64,000 nt of DNA from Pseudofrankia sp. DC12. GTDB lineage: Bacteria > Actinomycetota > Actinomycetes > Frankiales > Frankiaceae. The number at the start of each line of letters is the position of its first letter. Within the stretch, counting starts at the first letter, position 1. Where the stretch lies: the NCBI RefSeq assembly GCF_000966285.1, contig NZ_KQ031391.1, positions 740,978 to 804,977 on the forward strand, read 5' to 3'. The notes under the pieces are model-generated. The model was given only the letters and a program-made list of their open reading frames with translations, searched no databases and had not been told where the DNA came from. Positions 45,354 to 58,501 of this stretch are shown here, piece by piece. Position numbers and translations under genes: made by a program.

Positions 45354-46208
45354 TCAGCGGCGGGCGGCGTAGATCCGGCGGACGACGTCCTCGATGTCAG
45401 GTTCCTCGACGGTGAAGTCGAGGACCTCGGCCCGCTCGGCGACCGCCGCGAAGACCCTGGCGGCGGTGGTCGCCTCCGCGTCGAACGCGAGCCGCTGGCG
45501 CAGGCCGTGCGCCTCGCTGGACAGATGGCGGGTCGCGGGGATCCCGGCCAGATCCGGCGATGGCTCTGAGAGGTCGAGGACGAGTACCCGCTCGGCGCCG
45601 GTGGTCCGCCCGAGGCCAGCCAGGTCACCGTCGTACGCCAGCCGGCCGCGGTCGATGACGAGAACCCGGTCGCACAGCCGCTCGACGTCGCCCATGTCGT
45701 GGGTGGTCAGCAGCAGCGTCGTACCGTGGGTGCGCCGTTCGGCGATGAGGAACTCCCGCAGCCGCTGCTTGGACAGGACGTCGAGGCCGATCGTGGGCTC
45801 GTCGAGGATGACCAGCCGGGGAGCGTGCAGCAGCGCGGCCGCGACCTCGGCACGCATCCGCTGGCCCAGGGAGAGCTGACGGACCGGGGTGGCGAGGAAG
45901 TCGGCCAGCTCCAGGCACTCGACCAGCTCGTCGGTCCGGGCCCGCTCGGTAGCGGCGGTCAGGCTGTGGATGGCGGCCAGGATGCGGAACGACTCGCGCG
46001 CCGGAAGGTCCCACCACAGCTGGGACCGCTGCCCGAACACGACCCCCAAAGGCTGTGCCGGCACGACCGCGTGCATGCCGTTGCGCCACCCTGACCACGG
46101 CCGGTCGCGCCCGTTCTCCCGCCGCTCGGCAACAACAACAGGTGGCGGTGTCGACTCACCTTCAGCAAAGGCGGCCGACACCTCCGCCAGCGCGCCGTCC
46201 ATGATCAT
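45354..46208 (-). pseudogene. ABC transporter ATP-binding protein, lacking Walker A
   Basis: ATPase of the ABC-2 (DUF990-linked) type: Q-loop segment LGVVFGQRSQLWWDLPARES, signature RQLSLGQRMRAEVAAALL, Walker B LVILDEPTIGLDVLS, H-loop THDMGDVERLCDRVLVI, and a C-terminal domain. The first 70-80 residues, which should carry Walker A (GPNGAGKST), are replaced by an unrelated stretch MIMDGALAEVSAAFAEGEST. The N-terminus has evidently been lost in a rearrangement, so the protein cannot bind ATP normally. The permease genes at 47520-48629 are its probable partners. Confidence 0.7.
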
Positions 46209-46341
46209 GATTGGCCGGGCCGCCCTGGGCTAAGCTGTGCACTCTAGGTACCCCGACATCACCGGTGAAGCGGGCCTGGCGAAGGCTGTGGCTGATGTCA
46301 GACTGCGATGGTCACATCGTTCCTTGGAGAGGACACCGTAA

Positions 46342-46455
46342 GTGGCGCGAACGCTAGTGCGTGATCTGGCCGCGCACATCAACCAGTCTGTGACGATTTA
46401 TGGCTGGGTCGATACCGCGCGTCTGCAGCGAAGCGGCGGCATCAAACGGTCGTAG
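46342..46455 (+). pseudogene. 5' stub of an aspartyl-tRNA synthetase-like gene
   Basis: The frame opens with GTG 46342 (GGAGAGG at 46326-46332) and encodes MARTLVRDLAAHINQSVTIY followed by GWVDTARLQR, which matches the N-terminal OB-fold of class IIb aspartyl/asparaginyl-tRNA synthetases. After 30 codons it enters the IS30 left end and stops at TAG 46455. The rest of the gene is absent from the window. It may have been a second, nondiscriminating or resistance-type synthetase (inference). Confidence 0.6.
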
Positions 46456-47519
46456 CGACGCCCCGATAGGATGATCGCGATGGTGTCGAGGGGCTGGATG
46501 GTGGATGGGCGTACGGGAGCGGTTGACGGTGGAGGACCGCGAGGTCATCTCGCGGGAGTTGAGTCAGGAGCGTTCGGCTCGGTATATCGCCGCTGTGCTC
46601 GGTCGTCATCATTCGGGGATCTCCCGGGAGATCGAGCGTAACGGCGGTGCCGCGGCGTATCGGGCGGTGGATGCGCAGGCACGGTGTGATCTGATGTGCG
46701 CCCGCCCGAAGGAACGGAAACTCGTCGCGTCGAAGGAGCTGCACGACGCGGTGAACACCGGCCTGGTCGAGAAGTGGTCGCCGAAGCAGATCAGCGAGAG
46801 ACTGCGCACGGACTTTCCCGACGACGAGAGCATGCGCGTGAGCCACGAAACAATCTACGAGTGCCTCTACCTCCAGGCGCGCGGCGAGCTGCGGACGGAA
46901 CTGAAGATCGCGCTGCGTAAGGGCCGGGCCAGGCGGGTCAACCGGTCGCGCAGCACCCTGACCAGGGGCGGGATCGTCGGCATGGTCAACATCAGCGAGC
47001 GGCCGAAGGAGGCCGAGGACCGCGCCGTCCCCGGTTTCTGGGAGGGCGACCTGATCATCGGGAAGGGCAACGAGTCGCAGATCGCCACGCTGGTCGAGCG
47101 CACGACCCGGTTCGTGATGTTGGTGCGAATACCGTACGACCGTAACGCCGACAAGGTCGCCTACCTGCTGGGCAAGAAGATGGAGACCCTGCCCGAGTTC
47201 ATGCGGAACTCGGTGACCTGGGACCAGGGAAAGGAGATGGCCCGGCACGCCGATTTCACCGTCCGCACCGGTATTCCCGTGTATTTCTGCGACCCGCACT
47301 CACCGTGGCAGCGCGGCTCGAACGAGAACACCAACGGGTTGCTGCGCCAGTACTTCCCGAAGGGCACAGACCTGTCCTTGCACACGCAGGAAGAACTTGA
47401 TATGGTGGCCACGCAGCTGAATGGGCGGCCACGGCAGACGCTCAAATGGGCGACGCCGCTCGAGGTCTTTACCGAGCTGCTGGAAAGTCATGTGTCGCCA
47501 TGACCGCTTGATTCCGCCG
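46434..47519 (+). mobile_element. IS30-family insertion sequence
   Basis: About 1.09 kb element with terminal inverted repeats of about 26 bases: the left end begins CGGCGGCATCAAACGGTC and the right end, read inward, CGGCGGAATCAAGCGGTC. One transposase gene fills it. Codon third positions are less GC-rich than in neighbouring genes, a mark of recent arrival. The left flank is the cut AspRS-like gene, the right flank a cut permease gene; I see no matching short target duplication, so the insertion was probably followed by a deletion or inversion. Confidence 0.85.
46505..47503 (+). CDS. IS30-family transposase
   Basis: DDE transposase of 332 residues. N-terminal HTH LTVEDREVISRELSQERSAR and SGISREIERNGGAAAYRAVD are typical of IS30. 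The catalytic triad is present: Asp in FWEGDLIIGKGNESQIATLV, Asp in SVTWDQGKEMARHADF, and Glu in DPHSPWQRGSNENTNGLLRQ, with YFPKGTDLSLHTQEELDMVA after it. Intact, so the element may be mobile. GTG/ATG choice: the ATG at 46505 is the first in-frame start within the element. Confidence 0.94.
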   Translation: MGVRERLTVEDREVISRELSQERSARYIAAVLGRHHSGISREIERNGGAAAYRAVDAQARCDLMCARPKERKLVASKELHDAVNTGLVEKWSPKQISERLRTDFPDDESMRVSHETIYECLYLQARGELRTELKIALRKGRARRVNRSRSTLTRGGIVGMVNISERPKEAEDRAVPGFWEGDLIIGKGNESQIATLVERTTRFVMLVRIPYDRNADKVAYLLGKKMETLPEFMRNSVTWDQGKEMARHADFTVRTGIPVYFCDPHSPWQRGSNENTNGLLRQYFPKGTDLSLHTQEELDMVATQLNGRPRQTLKWATPLEVFTELLESHVSP

Positions 47520-47833
47520 TCCAGGGTGCCGGCGCGCAGGTAGACGGGCAGGTTGTCACAATGACCGACGGCCAGGTCGGCGACCGAGAAGGCCAGGTCG
47601 GCCAGGCCGAACACGAGCAGGATCTGGTGGAACTCCAGACCGCCGAGCCGGGTCACCGCGTGGAAGAGCACCCAGACCTCGGCCAGCTCGACCAACGCCG
47701 CCAGCAGCGAGCTCACCAGGTCGAGCGCGAAGTTCGACCGGTAGGACGTCTGGGACCGCACCCGGGAGGCGAGCACCATCCGATAGGGCCGTAGCCGGGT
47801 CCGCGGAAGGTCGGCTGTCTGCGCCGCAGCCAC
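47520..47833 (-). pseudogene. ABC-2 permease (second subunit), cut by the IS
   Basis: Starts at GTG 47833 with PRTRLRPYRMVLASRVRSQT and continues through VWVLFHAVTRLGGLEFHQIL and FGLADLAFSVADLAVGHCDN to VYLRAGTLD, then runs into the IS right end. About 104 of an expected 265 residues remain. It overlaps the reading-through end of the first permease. Family: ABC-2 permease DUF990, usually paired with a first permease and an ATPase. Confidence 0.75.
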
Positions 47834-48629
47834 CCTGCACCTCCAGGCGGCGCCGGCCGGCCCGGGTCAGCACCTGGCCGAGTCCGGCGACGCCGACCAG
47901 CCAGCCGACCTGTACCGCGAGCAGCCCCAGCGCGCCGGCGAGATCGACCCGACCCGCGAGGACGTCGATGGGGTACATCATCATCGACGGGAACGGCGTG
48001 GCCTCGGCGATGACCAACAGCCAGCGCGGAAACAGCCCGATGGGAACGAACAGCCCGGCCAGAAATCCCGAGATGACCATGTAGAAGACCTGCAGGCCCC
48101 GGGTCTCCACCAGCCAGAACCCAGCGACCCCGACCAGGTAGGCAGTCCCCACGGAGATCACGATCCCGAGCAGCAGGCTGCCGGCACCGAGTGGATAGGC
48201 CGCGAGCGAGCCCGGCGGCACCATGCCGACGAAGACGCCGATCACGAGCATCGGGATCCCGCGCGGAATCAGCGCGAACATGGATCGCCCGACCTCGGTC
48301 ACGATCTCGGCGGCCCGCACGTCGAGCGGGCGCAGGAAGTCGACCGCGACCCGACCATCCTTGATCCGTTCGGCGATGTCCGTGCGGCCGTTGAGGTTGA
48401 GTGAGCCGAGCATCGCCTGGGAGAGCCAGATGTAGGTGCTCATCCGCCCGACGTCGTACCCGGCCAGCTCACCGCCTGCCGCGTGCACCGTCGCGACGAG
48501 CACCGCCACCTTCAGCAGGCCGAACGTCGCGTTCGCCACCACCCCGCCGACCGCCGCGAGCCGATAGGTGGACTGGCGCCGGAACCCGGCCCCCAGTAAC
48601 CGCCAGTAGACCCGAGCAATCCCACGCAT
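47556..48629 (-). CDS. ABC-2 permease (first subunit), stop codon lost
   Basis: Six-helix permease of the DUF990 type starting MRGIARVYWRLLGAGFRRQS (ATG 48629). Conserved residues: FVGMVPPGSLAAYPLGAG, YLVGVAGFWLVETRGLQVFYMVISGFL, LFPRWLLVIAEATPFPSMMMYPIDVLAG. Homologues end RRLEVQGG-stop; here QGG (about 47829) is followed by Cys instead of a stop and the frame runs 90 codons further, out of phase over the second permease gene. The membrane part is complete, but the transporter as a whole is broken. Confidence 0.75.
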   Translation of the reverse strand: MRGIARVYWRLLGAGFRRQSTYRLAAVGGVVANATFGLLKVAVLVATVHAAGGELAGYDVGRMSTYIWLSQAMLGSLNLNGRTDIAERIKDGRVAVDFLRPLDVRAAEIVTEVGRSMFALIPRGIPMLVIGVFVGMVPPGSLAAYPLGAGSLLLGIVISVGTAYLVGVAGFWLVETRGLQVFYMVISGFLAGLFVPIGLFPRWLLVIAEATPFPSMMMYPIDVLAGRVDLAGALGLLAVQVGWLVGVAGLGQVLTRAGRRRLEVQGGCGADSRPSADPATALSDGARLPGAVPDVLPVELRARPGELAAGGVGRAGRGLGALPRGDPARRSGVPPDPARVRPGRPGLLGRRPGRRSL

Positions 48630-50730: not shown

Positions 50731-51360
50731 GCGACCGAACAGTACCGTTCCAGCCACCCCGGCCGAACAGCCCTGGGGCAAGGGTCGCCAGACCGGCGCG
50801 AACCCGGCCGGGATCCCCATCGGCCGCGAACGATCGCCTTCAGCGGCCAGGACGGCTGCTCGCCAGGACGGCGGCAGCGGGGCCGGGAAGCCGGTCCGCA
50901 CAGACCGGTTCCCCGCTGGTCTGACGGCTCGCCCCCGCCGCGGCCAAGCGCGTCACCTCCAAGGCCAGGGGCACCACGCCGGGCACCTCCGCCATCTCCC
51001 ATCGAGTCCTGCCTCGTGGTGGCTGTACCAGGCGATCTCGCGACCACCGCGTAGGACTCGATGGCGCTGTGCCGCAATGCGCGATGGCATTCACCATTCC
51101 CAGGCACCACGGCGCGGCGCCATCACGCGAGCATCCCGCATGACCGCGGACAGGCCGCGGACATCGGACCGCCGGCCGCGGCGGAACTATCGGCCGAGCG
51201 GCCTGGGCCGGCAACACGATTCACCGGGACCTGTTTCGGCTGTGTCGCTGCGACAGTCGATCGCCCGCCCATGTGAGGCTCGGCGCGAATATCGACCGCC
51301 GGAGCTCGCCGTGGCGGACACCATCAATGTTTCTACGCAATTCGAAGGGGTGTGGAGGGA
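50731..51360. other. Intergenic region without a gene
   Basis: About 630 bases. Frames in all six phases show no coding bias. The last 100 bases before the WPY-repeat gene are lower in G+C and should hold its promoter; no clear -35/-10 pair stands out. Confidence 0.45.
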
Positions 51361-52239
51361 ATGCGACCGGCAAGATTTGCGACCGCCGTTGGCGGAGTAC
51401 TTCTGGCCTGCGGGACGATCATCCCGCTCGCGACGCCCGCGCTCGCCGCCGGATCGCCGGTAGGGCTGGACAGCTGGCCCAGGACCGTGCCCGGCGCGGG
51501 AGCGTCGTCGCTGGGATGGCCGTATGACACCGGCTGGCCCATCGGTCAGACCGGGCTGGACACCTCGTCCACGGCCTGGCCGTACAGCACGGCCTGGCCC
51601 AGCGGCGTGACCGGCACGGACCCGTCGTCGACGTGGCCGTACGCCTCGAGCTGGCCGAGCAGCCAGACCGCCACGGACCCGTCATCCACGACCTGGCCGT
51701 ACACCAGCTGGCCCACCGCCCAGACCGGCACGGACCCGTCGACCACGACCTGGCCGTACAGCAACTGGCCCACCGGCCAGACCGGCACGGACCCGGCATC
51801 CACCTCGTGGCCGTACAACACAGGCTGGCCCACCGACCCGACCGCGATGGATCCGGCCTCGACACAGTGGCCCTACGGCACCGGCTGGCCCACCAGCCAG
51901 ACCGGCACCGGCACACCGGCGACTGACCCGACGAACACCGGCTCGACCGAGACCGACTCAACCGGCACTGACCCGACGGACACGGGCTCGACGGGCACGT
52001 CGACGGATCAGACAGACACGAGCGTCCCGTCGTCGAACTCCAGCGACTCGTCCACGGACCAGACCGACCCGGAGGCGCCCACCTCCAGCATGGCCGGCGG
52101 CCCGACCGACCAGAGCGACCCGACCGGCCAGGCCCTGCCCTGGTCAGGCCTGCCAGGCTGGCTCTCCGGCCAGGGGGACCCGGCTACCTCGTTCTGGAAC
52201 CCGATGAGCTGGCTGCGAAACATCCAGCAGTGGTTCTAG
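51361..52239 (+). CDS. Secreted protein with tandem WPY repeats
   Basis: Secreted protein of 292 residues, family not recognised. A signal peptide opens it (MRPARFATAVGGVLLACGTI followed by IPLATPALAA, cleavage near residue 30). From residue about 53 come seven tandem repeats of 19-20 residues with consensus WPYxxxWPxxQTGTDPSST (for example WPYTSWPTAQTGTDPSTTT), followed by a Thr/Asp/Ser-rich low-complexity region (TDSTGTDPTDTGSTGTSTDQ) and a C-terminal segment ending MSWLRNIQQWF. No anchor is seen. A GTG at 51352 is an alternative start. Reverse-strand frames here are antisense shadows of the repeats. Function unknown; possibly an extracellular adhesive or surface-coat protein (inference). 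Confidence 0.75.
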   Translation: MRPARFATAVGGVLLACGTIIPLATPALAAGSPVGLDSWPRTVPGAGASSLGWPYDTGWPIGQTGLDTSSTAWPYSTAWPSGVTGTDPSSTWPYASSWPSSQTATDPSSTTWPYTSWPTAQTGTDPSTTTWPYSNWPTGQTGTDPASTSWPYNTGWPTDPTAMDPASTQWPYGTGWPTSQTGTGTPATDPTNTGSTETDSTGTDPTDTGSTGTSTDQTDTSVPSSNSSDSSTDQTDPEAPTSSMAGGPTDQSDPTGQALPWSGLPGWLSGQGDPATSFWNPMSWLRNIQQWF

Positions 52240-52335
52240 CCGTTGGCGGGCCGGCCCTGGCCGGCCGGCCCGCACCACGGCCGCCCACTCGCGACGAACC
52301 GCCTCACAGCGGCAGCGCCGGGACCGCGCAGGCGC

Positions 52336-53234: not shown

Positions 53235-55634
53235 TTGGCCACCTACCTGTACCGGCTAGGGCGAGCGGCGTACCGGCGCCGGCGCCTGGTGGTCGCGCTG
53301 TGGGTCCTGCTTCTCGCCCTCGCGGGGGTCGGCGCCGCGACGCTGTCCGGGCCCACCTCGGACGCGCTGTCCATCCCGGGGACCGAGTCCCAGAAGGCCA
53401 TCGACCTGCTCAACGAGCGGATGCCCGGCGCCGGCGCGGACACCGCCGCGGCCCGGGTCGTCTTCACCGTCCCGGCTGGCTCGACCGGCACGCTGGCCGA
53501 GCCCACCCGGCAGCGGGCGATCGAGCACGCGGTCCAAGAGCTGTCCCACGCGCCGCAGGTCGGCCGGGTCACCGACCCGTTCACGGCCGTCGGCGGGAAG
53601 TGGGCGGCCGTGTCCCCCGACGGCCGGACCGCCTACGCGAGAGTGAGCTACACCGTCCAGCAGCGCGACGTCACCGACGCCGCCCGCAACGCGCTGTTCG
53701 CGGCGGCCGGCCCGGTGCGGGCAGCCGGCGTCGGCGTCGAGTTCGGCGGCACGGCCACGCAGGGCTCGGCGGCCCAGAGCGCGACCGAGGTGATCGGCAT
53801 CGCCGTCGCCGCGGTCGTCCTGCTGGTCACGTTCGGGTCGTTCGTCGCCGCCGGCCTGCCACTGCTGACCGCACTGCTGGGCGTGGCGATCGGCGTCTGC
53901 GGGATCGCGATCGCCACCGGGTTCCTGCACCTGAGCGCCAGCACGTCGACGCTCGCCCTGATGATCGGCCTGGCCGTCGGCATCGACTACGCCCTGTTCA
54001 TCACCTCGCGGTTCCGCGACGAGCTCGCGGCGGGTCAGGACGGTGAGCAGGCCGCCGGGCGCGCGGCCGGCACCGCCGGGTCGGCCGTGGTCTTCGCCGG
54101 CCTCACCGTCGTCATCGCGCTGGCCGCGCTCACGGTGGCGGGCATTCCCTTCCTCACCGAGATGGGGCTCGCCGCCGCGGCGACCGTCGCCGTCGCCGTC
54201 GCGATCGCGCTGACCCTGCTGCCGGCCGTCTTCGGGTTCGCGGGCCGGCGGCTCGCGCCCGCACAGCCGGCGAACGACACGACGAAGGGCACCCGGCGGC
54301 GCGGGCGCCACCTGTCCCGCCGTTTCGCCGGCCTGCGGTCCCGGGACCCGGAGACCGACGGAAACCGGCCGACGATGGGCGAGAGGTGGGCCCGGCTCGC
54401 GGTACGGCACCGTGGCTGGGTGGTCGCGACCGCGGTACTCGCGCTCGGGCTCGTCGCGGCCCCGGTCACCAGCCTGCGCCTCGGCCTGCCCGACGACAGC
54501 ACGGCGGCGCCGGCCAGCACCCAGCGGGTCGCCTACGACCAGCTCAGCTCCGGTTTCGGCGCCGGGTTCAACGGGCCGCTGCTGCTCGTCGTCGACCTGA
54601 CCCACGCCGGCGACCGCACCGCGGCCGTGGCCCAGGTGGCCGCGACCATCCGAGCGCTGCCGGACGTCACGTCGGTCGGGCCCGCGAGCTTCGACGCGGC
54701 GCGGGACACGGCGACGTTCTCCGTCACCCCCGGCAGCGGTCCCAGCGAGGCCGCGACCGAGCACCTGGTGCACAACATCCGGGCGCAGGCCGGCACGCTC
54801 GCGGCCACCACCGGGGCCATCACCATGGTGACGGGAGCGACCGCGGTCAACATCGACATCTCCGAGAAGCTCTCGGCCGCGCTCATCCCCTACCTCACGG
54901 TGGTCGTCGGCCTCGCCTTCGTGCTGCTCCTGCTGGTCTTTCGCAGCGTCCTGGTACCGCTCAAGGCGACCCTCGGGTTCCTGCTGAGCGTGGTCGCGAC
55001 GTTTGGCGCCGTCGTCGCCGTCTTCCAGTGGGGCTGGCTGAAGGACCTGTTCGGGGTCAGCTCCACCGGCCCGATCGTGAGCATGCTGCCGATCTTCCTC
55101 GTCGGCGTCCTGTTCGGTCTCGCCATGGACTACGAGGTCTTCCTGGTCACCAGGATGCGTGAGGAGTACATGCACGGGCGAGGCCCGGACGACGCGGTGA
55201 CCCTGGGCTTCCGGCACGGCGCCCGGGTCGTGACGGCGGCCGCGATCATCATGATCAGCGTGTTCGCCGGCTTCATCCTGTCCAGCGAGGCGATCATCCA
55301 GTCCATCGGCTTCGCGCTCGCCTTCGGTGTGCTCGTCGACGCCTTCGTGGTCCGGATGACCCTCGTGCCGGCCGTGATGGCGCTGCTCGGCCGGCGCGCC
55401 TGGTGGCTGCCACGCTGGCTGGACCGGCTGCTGCCGGACATCGACGTCGAGGGCAAGCGTCTGGTCGGCGTGACGGGACCCGCCACCGCGGGGGTCGACC
55501 AGCCGTCCGGGGCCGCCGGGCCGCACGGGCGCGCCGCCCAGGCCGACGGCACCGCCCAAGAGCCGGCGGGGCCTGGGACCGACGCGGGGCTGCCCAGCCA
55601 GCGGCGGGCCAGCAGCGGGGTCACGGCCGGGTAG
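53235..55634 (+). CDS. MmpL/RND-family transporter
   Basis: RND transporter of 799 residues with twelve helices and two extracytoplasmic loops. MmpL marks: LSIPGTESQKAIDLLNERMPG after the first helix, GIAVAAVVLLVTFGSFVAAGLPLLTALLGV, the Asp-rich transmembrane motif LMIGLAVGIDYALFITSRFR and, in the second half, LFGLAMDYEVFLVTRMREEY. Actinobacterial MmpL proteins export lipids or siderophore-like compounds. TTG 53235 has GAGGAG at 53222-53227 (7-base spacing). The C-terminal 60 residues are soluble and low in complexity. Regulated by the divergent TetR. Confidence 0.93.
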   Translation: MATYLYRLGRAAYRRRRLVVALWVLLLALAGVGAATLSGPTSDALSIPGTESQKAIDLLNERMPGAGADTAAARVVFTVPAGSTGTLAEPTRQRAIEHAVQELSHAPQVGRVTDPFTAVGGKWAAVSPDGRTAYARVSYTVQQRDVTDAARNALFAAAGPVRAAGVGVEFGGTATQGSAAQSATEVIGIAVAAVVLLVTFGSFVAAGLPLLTALLGVAIGVCGIAIATGFLHLSASTSTLALMIGLAVGIDYALFITSRFRDELAAGQDGEQAAGRAAGTAGSAVVFAGLTVVIALAALTVAGIPFLTEMGLAAAATVAVAVAIALTLLPAVFGFAGRRLAPAQPANDTTKGTRRRGRHLSRRFAGLRSRDPETDGNRPTMGERWARLAVRHRGWVVATAVLALGLVAAPVTSLRLGLPDDSTAAPASTQRVAYDQLSSGFGAGFNGPLLLVVDLTHAGDRTAAVAQVAATIRALPDVTSVGPASFDAARDTATFSVTPGSGPSEAATEHLVHNIRAQAGTLAATTGAITMVTGATAVNIDISEKLSAALIPYLTVVVGLAFVLLLLVFRSVLVPLKATLGFLLSVVATFGAVVAVFQWGWLKDLFGVSSTGPIVSMLPIFLVGVLFGLAMDYEVFLVTRMREEYMHGRGPDDAVTLGFRHGARVVTAAAIIMISVFAGFILSSEAIIQSIGFALAFGVLVDAFVVRMTLVPAVMALLGRRAWWLPRWLDRLLPDIDVEGKRLVGVTGPATAGVDQPSGAAGPHGRAAQADGTAQEPAGPGTDAGLPSQRRASSGVTAG

Positions 55635-55711
55635 CCCGGGCGGGCGCCAGGCGCCGGTGGCGTGTGACCTGTCACGCCGCCGGCAATACTGGCCCGGAGG
55701 GGGGGCCGCCC

Positions 55712-58501
55712 ATGCGATCCAGCAACGTCGACCCCGGGAGTCTGGACACGCAGGAGGTTCGCCCGATTTCGGAGGGTGCATTCCGAATGGTGGCGGCCGG
55801 CGTCGCGGCGCTGATCGTGCTGGCCTTCGTGCCGCTGCTGTTGGACGGACAGCAGCGGCTGATCGCCCAGGCGGTCTCGGTGGCGGCGTCCAGCCTCGCC
55901 GCGGCGGTGATCGCCGGCGTGGGCGTGGTCCGCACCAGGGGCGCCGATCAGCGCTGGCGGCTGCTGACCTGGGTGACGCTGGTGTGCCAGCTCGGCGCAG
56001 CCGCCGACTGGATCGGCCACTATTCGGTACACCATCTCCGGCGGGTCGCGCTAGGCCCGGCCGACATCCTCTATCTGGTGCCCTTCCTTATCCTCTCCGT
56101 CGCGCTGCTGCTGATCCCGATGGAGCCGGACCGCGACAAGCGGGGCCTGGCCCGCGATCCCGGCAGCCGGCCGCGGTACTCGAACGCTCTCGTCGCGCTG
56201 GACGGCCTGGTGGTCGTGGTCTCCACGCTGTTGATCATCTGGACCACCACGCTCAGCAGGATCGTCGCCAGCGACGTCGGCGGGATGGCGTTCTTCCTCG
56301 CCATGGCCCTCCCACTGTGGGGAATGCTCATCGTGGTGCTGGCGCTGCTGCTGGCGGCCTTCCGCCGGCCGCGCAACGGGCGGTCGATGGCACTGCTCAT
56401 CGCGGGGCTCGCCGTGCTGGTCGCCCCGGACACCGCCGTGGTCGCCCTGACCCTCGGCAGTACGGAGAGCCTCGCGCGGACGGCACCCTACTGGATCGGC
56501 GTGGCCGTCGGACTGCCCCTGGTCGCGCTGGCGGTCGTCGTTCCGGAGCGCCGCGGACGGGCCGGTGACGAGGAGAGCACCGCGACGACGCCGTTGCGGC
56601 GAGGCCTGGCCTGGCCCTGGGCCCATGTCTACGTGCCGTACCTCCCGCTCGGCGCCGCCGCGCTGCTCATCGTCGGGCTGGCGGTCAGCGGAACGGCGCT
56701 CGGCGGCGCCTCCCTCTACCTGGCCCTGCTGCTGGCGACGCTGGTCACGCTCCGCCAGCTTGTCACGATGGCCGAGAACGTCCGGCTGCTTGCCACCCTG
56801 CAGACGGCGCACGAGCGGCTGCGCTACCAGGCGTTCCATGACCAGCTCACCAGCCTGCCGAACCGCGCGCTGTTCACCGGCGAGCTCGAGCGCGCCGTCG
56901 AGGCCCACCGCGCCGACCGGCGGGCGGTGACCGTGCTGTTCTGCGACCTCGACGGCTTCAAGAACATCAACGACACCCTGGGGCACGCCGCCGGCGACGA
57001 CCTGCTGCGGGCCGTCGCCGGCCGGCTGCACGGCGCGGTCCGGGACAAGGACCTCGCGGCCCGGCTCGGCGGCGACGAGTTCGCCGTCCTGCTCACCGAC
57101 CTGGCCGGCGCGGGCGAACCGCGGATCGCCGGCGAGCGCACCGGACAGCGGATCCTCGCCGCCATGCGCCAGCCGTTCACCGTCCGCGGGAACCGGCGCC
57201 TTTTGCGGATCAGCATCGGCCTCGCGGTCGCCGACAGCCAGGAGCCAGTGGACGACGCCGAGCAGCTGCTCCACCGCGCGGACACCGCGATGTACACCGC
57301 GAAGCACGGCCACCATGGCGGTCTCGTCCTGTCGCGTGGCGGCAGGACCGTGGCCACGAGCGGGCCGTCGCTCACGCTCAGGCTGGCCACCGATGCCACG
57401 GCCGGTGAGCTCGCCGTCTGCTACCAGCCGATCAGCAGCCTCTGCGACGGCCAGGACTTCGGGGTCGAGGCGCTGCTGTGCAGGGTGCGGCCCTCCGGGT
57501 ACCCCATGCCGGCCCACGAGCTGCTCACTGCCGCCGAGCGGGACGGCTCCATCGACGAGCTGAACACCCATCTGCTCGAACGGGCCTGCCGAGATCTGCC
57601 CGCGGTCCGCGACCGCCTGGGGGCCCCGGTCCGGATGCACGTCAACGTGTCCCCGAGCCGGGTGGGCAACCGGGAGCTCGCGGATCACGTCGAGCGCGCG
57701 CTGCGCCGCCACGGCCTGGACGCCGCCGCGCTGGTCCTGGAGGTCGCAGGCACCGCCCACATCCCGGACCTGGCCGCCGCCGGGACGACGCTGCGCCAGC
57801 TCGCCGACGCCGGCGTCGACGTCGCGCTGGACGAGGTCGGCGTCGCCGACACGTCGCTCGCCGCGCTCTACCAGCTGCCGGTCCGCCTCCTGAAACTGGA
57901 CGCGATCCTGTCCGCCGACCTGGTGGCCCCGCGGCGGGCGCACTGGCCCAGCCTGCCGTGTGCCCGCGCCGCCGTCATCGACTTCGCCATCGCGACCGGG
58001 CTGAAGGTGGGCGCCGGCGGCATCGAGATGTCCTCGCAGCTGGACGCCCTGCGCGCGGCCGGCTGCGGCTTCGGGCAGGGCAGCCTGATCGGGCCGCCGC
58101 AGACGCTGGAGCTCCTGACGGCCACGCGTGCTCGCTGGCACCCAGCCCCAGACGGGCGCGGCGCCGGGCGGTCGGCCCAGGCCCGGGCCTGGGAGACAGA
58201 ACGACCGGGCCGCCGCGGCCGCGCGCCGCCGCGACGCTGCCAGCTCGCGGCGCCAGCCCCTGCGCGCCGGACCGTCCCGTCGATACTCACGGCCGGGCCT
58301 GTGGGAGCCGGGCCTGTGGGAGCCGGGCCTGTAGGAGCCGGCTTGACACCACCTGCCCCGGCCTGCGCCACCCCTCGTAGACTGTCCCCGGCCACCAGAG
58401 ACAGCGGGGGTGTCGCCTGTGCGCCGGCTTGGTTCCCAGTACGTCCTGCACACGCCGTTGGGCCGGGGCGCCAGTGGCGAGGTCTGGCGTGGCAGCCGTG
58501 A
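55712..58501 (+). CDS. Membrane GGDEF-EAL protein with degenerate EAL domain
   Basis: About 929 residues. N-terminal membrane region with eight or nine helices (residues about 15-345), then a GGDEF domain with intact signature RLGGDEFAVLL (near residue 455) and DGFKNINDTLGHAAGDDLLR, a probable active diguanylate cyclase. The EAL domain keeps VEALL and LEVAG but has DEVGVADTS for DDFGTGYSS and VGAGGIEM for AEGVE, losing residues needed for phosphodiesterase activity. ATG 55712 has GGAGGGGG upstream. The last 70 codons are low complexity, contain a 15-base triplication, and overlap the kinase start by about 80 bases; the natural end may be near 58290 if a slippage frameshift happened. Confidence 0.85.
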   Translation: MRSSNVDPGSLDTQEVRPISEGAFRMVAAGVAALIVLAFVPLLLDGQQRLIAQAVSVAASSLAAAVIAGVGVVRTRGADQRWRLLTWVTLVCQLGAAADWIGHYSVHHLRRVALGPADILYLVPFLILSVALLLIPMEPDRDKRGLARDPGSRPRYSNALVALDGLVVVVSTLLIIWTTTLSRIVASDVGGMAFFLAMALPLWGMLIVVLALLLAAFRRPRNGRSMALLIAGLAVLVAPDTAVVALTLGSTESLARTAPYWIGVAVGLPLVALAVVVPERRGRAGDEESTATTPLRRGLAWPWAHVYVPYLPLGAAALLIVGLAVSGTALGGASLYLALLLATLVTLRQLVTMAENVRLLATLQTAHERLRYQAFHDQLTSLPNRALFTGELERAVEAHRADRRAVTVLFCDLDGFKNINDTLGHAAGDDLLRAVAGRLHGAVRDKDLAARLGGDEFAVLLTDLAGAGEPRIAGERTGQRILAAMRQPFTVRGNRRLLRISIGLAVADSQEPVDDAEQLLHRADTAMYTAKHGHHGGLVLSRGGRTVATSGPSLTLRLATDATAGELAVCYQPISSLCDGQDFGVEALLCRVRPSGYPMPAHELLTAAERDGSIDELNTHLLERACRDLPAVRDRLGAPVRMHVNVSPSRVGNRELADHVERALRRHGLDAAALVLEVAGTAHIPDLAAAGTTLRQLADAGVDVALDEVGVADTSLAALYQLPVRLLKLDAILSADLVAPRRAHWPSLPCARAAVIDFAIATGLKVGAGGIEMSSQLDALRAAGCGFGQGSLIGPPQTLELLTATRARWHPAPDGRGAGRSAQARAWETERPGRRGRAPPRRCQLAAPAPARRTVPSILTAGPVGAGPVGAGPVGAGLTPPAPACATPRRLSPATRDSGGVACAPAWFPVRPAHAVGPGRQWRGLAWQP
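58292..58336 (+). repeat. 15-bp tandem triplication
   Basis: Three copies of a 15-base unit (GCCGGGCCTGTGGGA; the last copy has one change), in frame within the end of the GGDEF-EAL gene as AGPVG repeats. Replication slippage here probably altered the C-terminus. Confidence 0.9.

Follow-up and report, generated by a model that had tools for sequence, protein, structure and literature searches.

The window analysed here, a stretch of 64,000 nucleotides from Pseudofrankia sp. DC12, a soil bacterium akin to nitrogen-fixing Frankia (assembly GCF_000966285.1, contig NZ_KQ031391.1, positions 740,978 to 804,977), contains a gene whose product repeats a Trp-Pro-Tyr (WPY) motif seven times. This locus raised a question: what kind of protein is built from such repeats, and what might it do for the bacterium?

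Architecture of the gene and the encoded chain

A reading made from the DNA letters alone (the sequence-only reading) had described an open reading frame with seven WPY repeats and a Thr/Ser/Asp tail. Indeed, the frame is present with both of these parts (Table 1). Its start codon, the ATG at 51361, is common in the alignment to all three orthologues that we detected. The list of open reading frames also offered an in-frame GTG at 51352, nine bases upstream; this codon is not common to the orthologues, because both of the others have one base fewer between the GTG and the ATG. Owing to the same one-base difference, an earlier in-frame ATG that lies 11 codons upstream in both orthologues is out of frame in DC12.

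Table 1. Features of the WPY locus (window coordinates) and the evidence on which each is placed.
Feature	Coordinates	Strand	Basis
5' flank, candidate promoter/leader region; SD-like AAGGGG at 51345-51350	51211..51360	+	Similarity to orthologues; SD by eye
Gene for WPY-repeat protein, 292 aa + stop	51361..52239	+	ORF list, orthologues, frame-preserving gaps, dN/dS 0.42-0.57
Probable signal peptide, residues 1-29; AxA site ending at 29; Cys17 lipobox-like	51361..51447	+	Pattern tests and alignment; cleavage site inferred
Short N-terminal segment of mature protein, residues 30-52, conserved	51448..51516	+	Orthologue alignment
Seven WPY...WP... repeats, residues 53-189	51517..51927	+	Tandem Repeats Finder, shuffles, column invariance
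Acidic Thr/Ser/Asp/Gly tail, residues 190-256; length differs among orthologues	51928..52128	+	Alignment and sequences
Trp-rich C-terminus, residues 257-292, conserved in three orthologues	52129..52236	+	Alignment
Predicted amphipathic helix, residues 281-291	52201..52233	+	Low-confidence AlphaFold2 model; hydrophobic moment
Strong G+C hairpin separating the WPY gene from the convergent TetR gene	52239..52281	+	RNA fold -37.8 kcal/mol, z -3.27

The WPY units start at residues 53, 73, 92, 112, 131, 150 and 170, a spacing of 19–20 residues, and Tandem Repeats Finder reported a 57-base period with 75% matches in the gene. The mature part contains 7 WPY and 15 WP motifs; in 100,000 shuffles of its residues, the counts never exceeded 2 and 10, respectively. 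The mature chain is 7.6% Trp, 20.2% Thr and 13.4% Pro, bears a net charge of -21, and is devoid of Lys, His and Cys. By comparison, Trp accounts for 0–2.5% of five neighbouring proteins.

The repeat had been put forward as an unrecognised one that should be sought in databases. No profile matched the protein in Pfam or NCBIfam (E up to 1) or in PHROGs or PADLOC (E up to 0.1), and no PDB sequence matched it at E up to 1; these four libraries and the PDB sequences thus bear out the claim. Literature listings (titles and the beginnings of abstracts) yielded no paper on the protein and nothing on its expression. Judged from its sequence, the protein is apparently a lineage-restricted orphan whose repeat, of a known general style, has no record in the libraries searched.

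Structure prediction, another check that had been suggested, yielded disorder except for a low-confidence C-terminal helix. In the AlphaFold2 model, built on a three-sequence alignment, the mean pLDDT was 36.8, 267 of the 292 residues fell below 50, and residues 281-291 formed the sole helix; the three sequences are close, and a shallow alignment can also give a poor model.

These results bear on the possibility that the Trp-Pro-Tyr repeats constitute a binding module for a specific ligand, such as an aromatic compound or a polysaccharide of plant or microbial origin, in an adhesin or capture protein. Exposed aromatic pairs at a fixed spacing would suit stacking on sugars, and members of the genus have been isolated from root nodules, as recounted in parts of PMC9680954 and PMC4541282. 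However, the repeats show no similarity to described binding repeats in Pfam, NCBIfam or the PDB sequences, and AlphaFold2 predicts no fold that would fix the aromatic rings. We consider a binding module rather improbable.

Probable export signal and termini

All three orthologues display, by pattern and by eye, the features of a Sec-type signal: a positive n-region, a hydrophobic core and an AxA site. The pattern match, in which the AxA site ends at residue 29, agrees with the signal peptide that the sequence-only reading had proposed. The same N-terminus might instead belong to a lipoprotein, whose signal would be cut before Cys17 and whose repeats would form a stalk tethered to the membrane by the lipidated residue. 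Cys17 is the single Cys of the protein, is invariant and is preceded by LLA or LVA. Of two lipobox patterns, the looser, PROSITE-like one is found at Cys17 in all three sequences, but the stricter G+LPP one in only one of the three. Furthermore, the hydrophobic stretch continues beyond Cys17 to the AxA site at residue 29, and the invariance of Cys17 says little, because most of the N-terminus is invariant in three such close sequences. A lipoprotein appears unlikely to us, and we favour a signal that would be cleaved after residue 29.

The protein had also been described as lacking an anchor. This description holds with respect to sortase, as no LPXTG-like sorting motif was seen by eye in the translation, which ends QQWF. 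It is less secure in other respects, since the chain could be retained via the lipobox-like Cys17 or an amphipathic C-terminus. In each of the three orthologues, the final ten residues form an amphipathic stretch, with a hydrophobic moment exceeding that of 98.8–99.3% of shuffles; this stretch was picked after the AlphaFold2 model had been viewed. The notion that the C-terminus is a sorting signal common to other proteins of the genome was rejected; elsewhere in the genome, the 40 C-terminal residues had nothing better than a match with an E of 0.078.

Distribution, age and constraint of the repeat array

The DC12 genome (6,884,336 bases in one contig) carries the gene in single copy. DC12 belongs, with EuI1c, to the cluster 4 Frankia that were moved to the genus Pseudofrankia, as described in part of PMC9680954. 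The gene was found in three of eight genomes of this genus, i.e., DC12 and the two designated G001 (8,815,781 bases) and G002, and in three of 393 genomes of the class, with six candidates scored per genome. In the family set of 35, for which up to 74 candidates were scored, no genome beyond the three carriers remained once two false rows were dropped. A scan of a collection of genome contigs returned one record with the gene, from Frankia sp. AgB1.9 (45,216 bases); it missed the 75%-identical copy of G001, and records near the query's own genome may be omitted from it. Because that copy was missed and the candidates per genome were limited, absence of the gene elsewhere is not proven by these searches. 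The DC12 gene is 75% identical to both orthologues over aligned columns; tblastn, whose alignment includes gaps, gives 61–62%.

The three carriers share one arrangement: the WPY gene lies between a phosphoribosyltransferase gene and that of a TetR regulator, and an MMPL transporter gene comes after the latter. Among the five genomes of the genus with no detected copy, G003 keeps the TetR and MMPL genes with different genes beside TetR; it was read beside TetR and to the contig end 254 bases from the phosphoribosyltransferase gene. The latter gene is kept among different neighbours in G004, G005 and G006, which were read beside it, and neither flanking gene was found in G007 at E 1e-40. The stretches read from G003–G006 contained matches to the WPY gene of only 29 bases (G003) and 38 bases (G005).

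This neighbourhood also informs the idea that the protein is a multi-core precursor, to be cleaved into small peptides of repeated sequence. The near-regularity of the repeats and their Asp-Pro steps would be in keeping with such a precursor. However, the nearest genes encode the phosphoribosyltransferase, TetR and MMPL proteins rather than a modifying enzyme or peptidase, and the MMPL gene also occurs in G003, where no WPY gene was found. A precursor of this type is, in our estimation, highly improbable.

Several other candidates were rejected. A match in G019 (E 4e-4) comprises repetitive open frames devoid of WPY, with no profile match; one in G022 (E 1e-4) is a WPAGTA run in a frame opposite another long ORF; and in G007 (E 0.006) the ORFs of the locus lack the WPY repeat. 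A phage or plasmid origin was likewise discarded: at E up to 0.01 the gene had no match in plasmid and phage records, 32 viral candidates all failed confirmation, and no PHROGs family was found.

A DNA pattern for consecutive repeats matched four of 396 genomes of the phylum, namely DC12 and three others (G001 and G002 are not among the genomes listed in that search). Six of the seven forward matches in DC12 lie in the WPY gene, and the seventh (L057) has no WPY repeat frame. The matches in the three other genomes were opposite-strand readings of proteins rich in PYGQ or QYGQ. When read on the opposite strand, such genes (L048, L050, L051) spell WPY-like DNA repeats and are a trap for pattern searches. 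A backward version of the pattern, used as a control, matched in eight listed genomes, including DC12; single matches are thus at chance level.

How old is the array? Strong similarity between the repeats at the DNA level had been taken as a sign of recent expansion. The similarity is, instead, moderate: repeat-to-repeat identity in DC12 is 67–88%, with a mean of 78%. The corresponding means are 73% and 78% within the two orthologues, and comparisons between strains average 75–78%. The first repeats of the three strains pair with one another, and pairing between G001 and G002 also holds for repeats 2 and 3. This cross-strain pairing, along with the equal means, speaks for an array that would be older than the split of the strains. 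On the other hand, repeats 2, 3, 4, 5 and 7 of DC12 are each closest to another repeat of the DC12 array (0.86–0.88, vs. 0.82–0.86 elsewhere), a lead of 1–4 points over the best match elsewhere, and such margins are small at ~57–60 bases per repeat. The closest pair overall consists of two adjacent repeats of G002 (0.92). The number of repeats, which the sequence-only reading had suggested comparing among strains, does vary: seven in DC12 vs. six in each of the two orthologues. The claim of recent expansion thus meets with mixed evidence, as five of seven repeats are nearest to their own array but mean identity within strains is no higher than between them. We read the array as probably old and later subject to a degree of turnover or homogenisation; the identities do not demonstrate a strong recent burst, and single units may be of recent origin.

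Over the whole gene, dN/dS between the three orthologues was 0.42, 0.57 and 0.47, and the alignment gaps preserve the frame. The neighbouring phosphoribosyltransferase, TetR and MMPL genes had lower values (0.07–0.28), and short segments of the WPY gene gave erratic ones (0.19–1.29) on few changes. The repeat region has 111 ungapped columns; 37 of these have a Trp, Pro or Tyr majority, and 35 of the 37 were invariant, vs. 39 of the 74 others (Fisher p 4e-6), a contrast that is somewhat inflated by the aligner's preference for matching Trp and by the dropping of gapped columns. All 13 Trp columns were invariant, even though no substitution in a Trp codon is silent. From this alignment, the periodic aromatic pattern looks like a constrained feature of the protein.

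The flanks of the gene were scrutinized as well. Over the 150 bases upstream of the start, 129 and 130 columns are identical to the two orthologues (86–87%), with one gap in this interval, and identity drops further upstream. Four-fold sites of the neighbours are 77–87% identical by comparison, and the flank hints only weakly, if at all, at a conserved promoter or leader. No unusual RNA fold was found in it (z +1.44; 189 of 200 shuffles folded as well or better). A riboswitch was rejected, with no Rfam match at the gathering score and four chance-level matches, as was a repeated element, the closest other match of the flank having an E of 0.09. Downstream, each of the three carriers has the hairpin just after the stop codon (z -3.27 in DC12, -3.16 and -2.54 in the orthologues); it is G+C-rich, has no U run, and is perhaps a terminator shared by the convergent genes.

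One could view the gene as a fast-changing orphan that has little function beyond being tolerated. It is single-copy and was detected in three close genomes only, its dN/dS exceeds that of the three neighbours tested, and some short segments are near or above 1, on few changes. Yet the overall ratio lies below 1, the frame and the aromatic columns are kept, and so are the 5' flank and the 3' hairpin. We therefore judge such an orphan distinctly improbable.

Proposed role and surroundings of the gene

Our preferred reading, which is tentative and held at somewhat less than even confidence, is that the gene product is an exported, intrinsically disordered sticker-and-spacer protein of the surface or matrix, with its function inferred. 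It is based on the signal-like N-terminus (3/3), the predicted disorder, the preserved Trp/Pro/Tyr periodicity and the C-terminal amphipathicity (3/3). The Sec-type signal would direct export of a chain in which Trp-Pro pairs are evenly spaced by flexible Thr/Ser/Gly/Asp/Gln spacers. After export, the chain may be retained at the envelope by its C-terminal helix or by aromatic contacts. There the repeats, as stickers, could make weak, multivalent contacts with one another and with glycans or aromatic surfaces, and these contacts would produce a sticky, hydrated coat. Surface coating, adhesion and the binding of aromatic ligands, the candidate functions offered in the sequence-only reading, are all plausible. 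The neighbouring phosphoribosyltransferase, TetR and MMPL genes say nothing specific about a coat.

Coat and stalk proteins of other bacteria offer comparisons. Streptomyces, a filamentous actinobacterium, secretes chaplins and rodlins as small coat proteins. The WPY protein would be alike in being a small secreted coat protein; it differs in repeat, in composition and in having no mature Cys, and no Pfam family, the chaplin domain included, was matched at E up to 1. In staphylococci, surface proteins with Ser-Asp repeats have a low-complexity, acidic, stalk-like stretch. The WPY protein shares an acidic low-complexity stretch with them, but is without LPXTG and without a predicted folded ligand domain. 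Resilin is composed of disordered repeats with regular aromatic residues. Both it and the RNA polymerase II CTD (as treated in part of PMC11502803) resemble the WPY protein in placing regular aromatics and prolines in flexible polar spacers. There is no known sequence relation to either, and the WPY protein is bacterial, probably exported, and dominated by Trp rather than Tyr.

During export, Thr and Ser residues of the chain may be O-mannosylated by the genome's putative Pmt-like enzyme. A Pmt-type protein is encoded in DC12, with PF02366 and PF16192 above their cut-offs; it scores far under the NCBIfam equivalog cut-off (257.9 vs. 800 bits), and PF02366 alone is unspecific, exceeding its cut-off at five places in the DC12 genome and in seven of 14 control genomes. 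In M. tuberculosis, Pmt mannosylates unfolded proteins during their Sec passage, according to part of PMC6593405; by analogy, such modification would suit a disordered, Thr-rich chain. The Pmt-modified exported proteins of actinobacteria (S. coelicolor glycoproteome, PMC6593405) are alike in having a Thr/Ser-rich, signal-bearing chain and a Pmt-like protein encoded in the genome. In contrast, that class is not defined by Trp content or a WPY period, and glycosylation of the WPY protein is putative.

If the sticker-and-spacer reading is true, an unrecorded repeat would be added to the exported disordered proteins of bacteria, one whose aromatic periodicity is apparently under selection. The orthologues would provide a natural seven/six/six series for probing the role of regular extracellular Trp-Pro spacing, and the protein would also mark one sub-lineage of Pseudofrankia.

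Two other parts of the window deserve mention. At 53235-58501, the MMPL transporter gene is divergent from the TetR gene, and its end is overlapped by the listed frame of the next gene, which codes for a GGDEF-EAL protein; the best NCBIfam match of the MMPL protein is MmpL3, far under its cut-off (227.7 vs. 1400 bits). At 45354-48629, a minus-strand ABC-2 exporter operon contains a transposase ORF (46505-47503, HTH_38 and rve domains) that we take to be IS30-like. In this operon the second permease is shortened and the match of the ATPase ORF to the ABC profile is confined to the profile's second half, while the counterparts of these ORFs in the two orthologous loci are longer; in DC12, the exporter looks interrupted.
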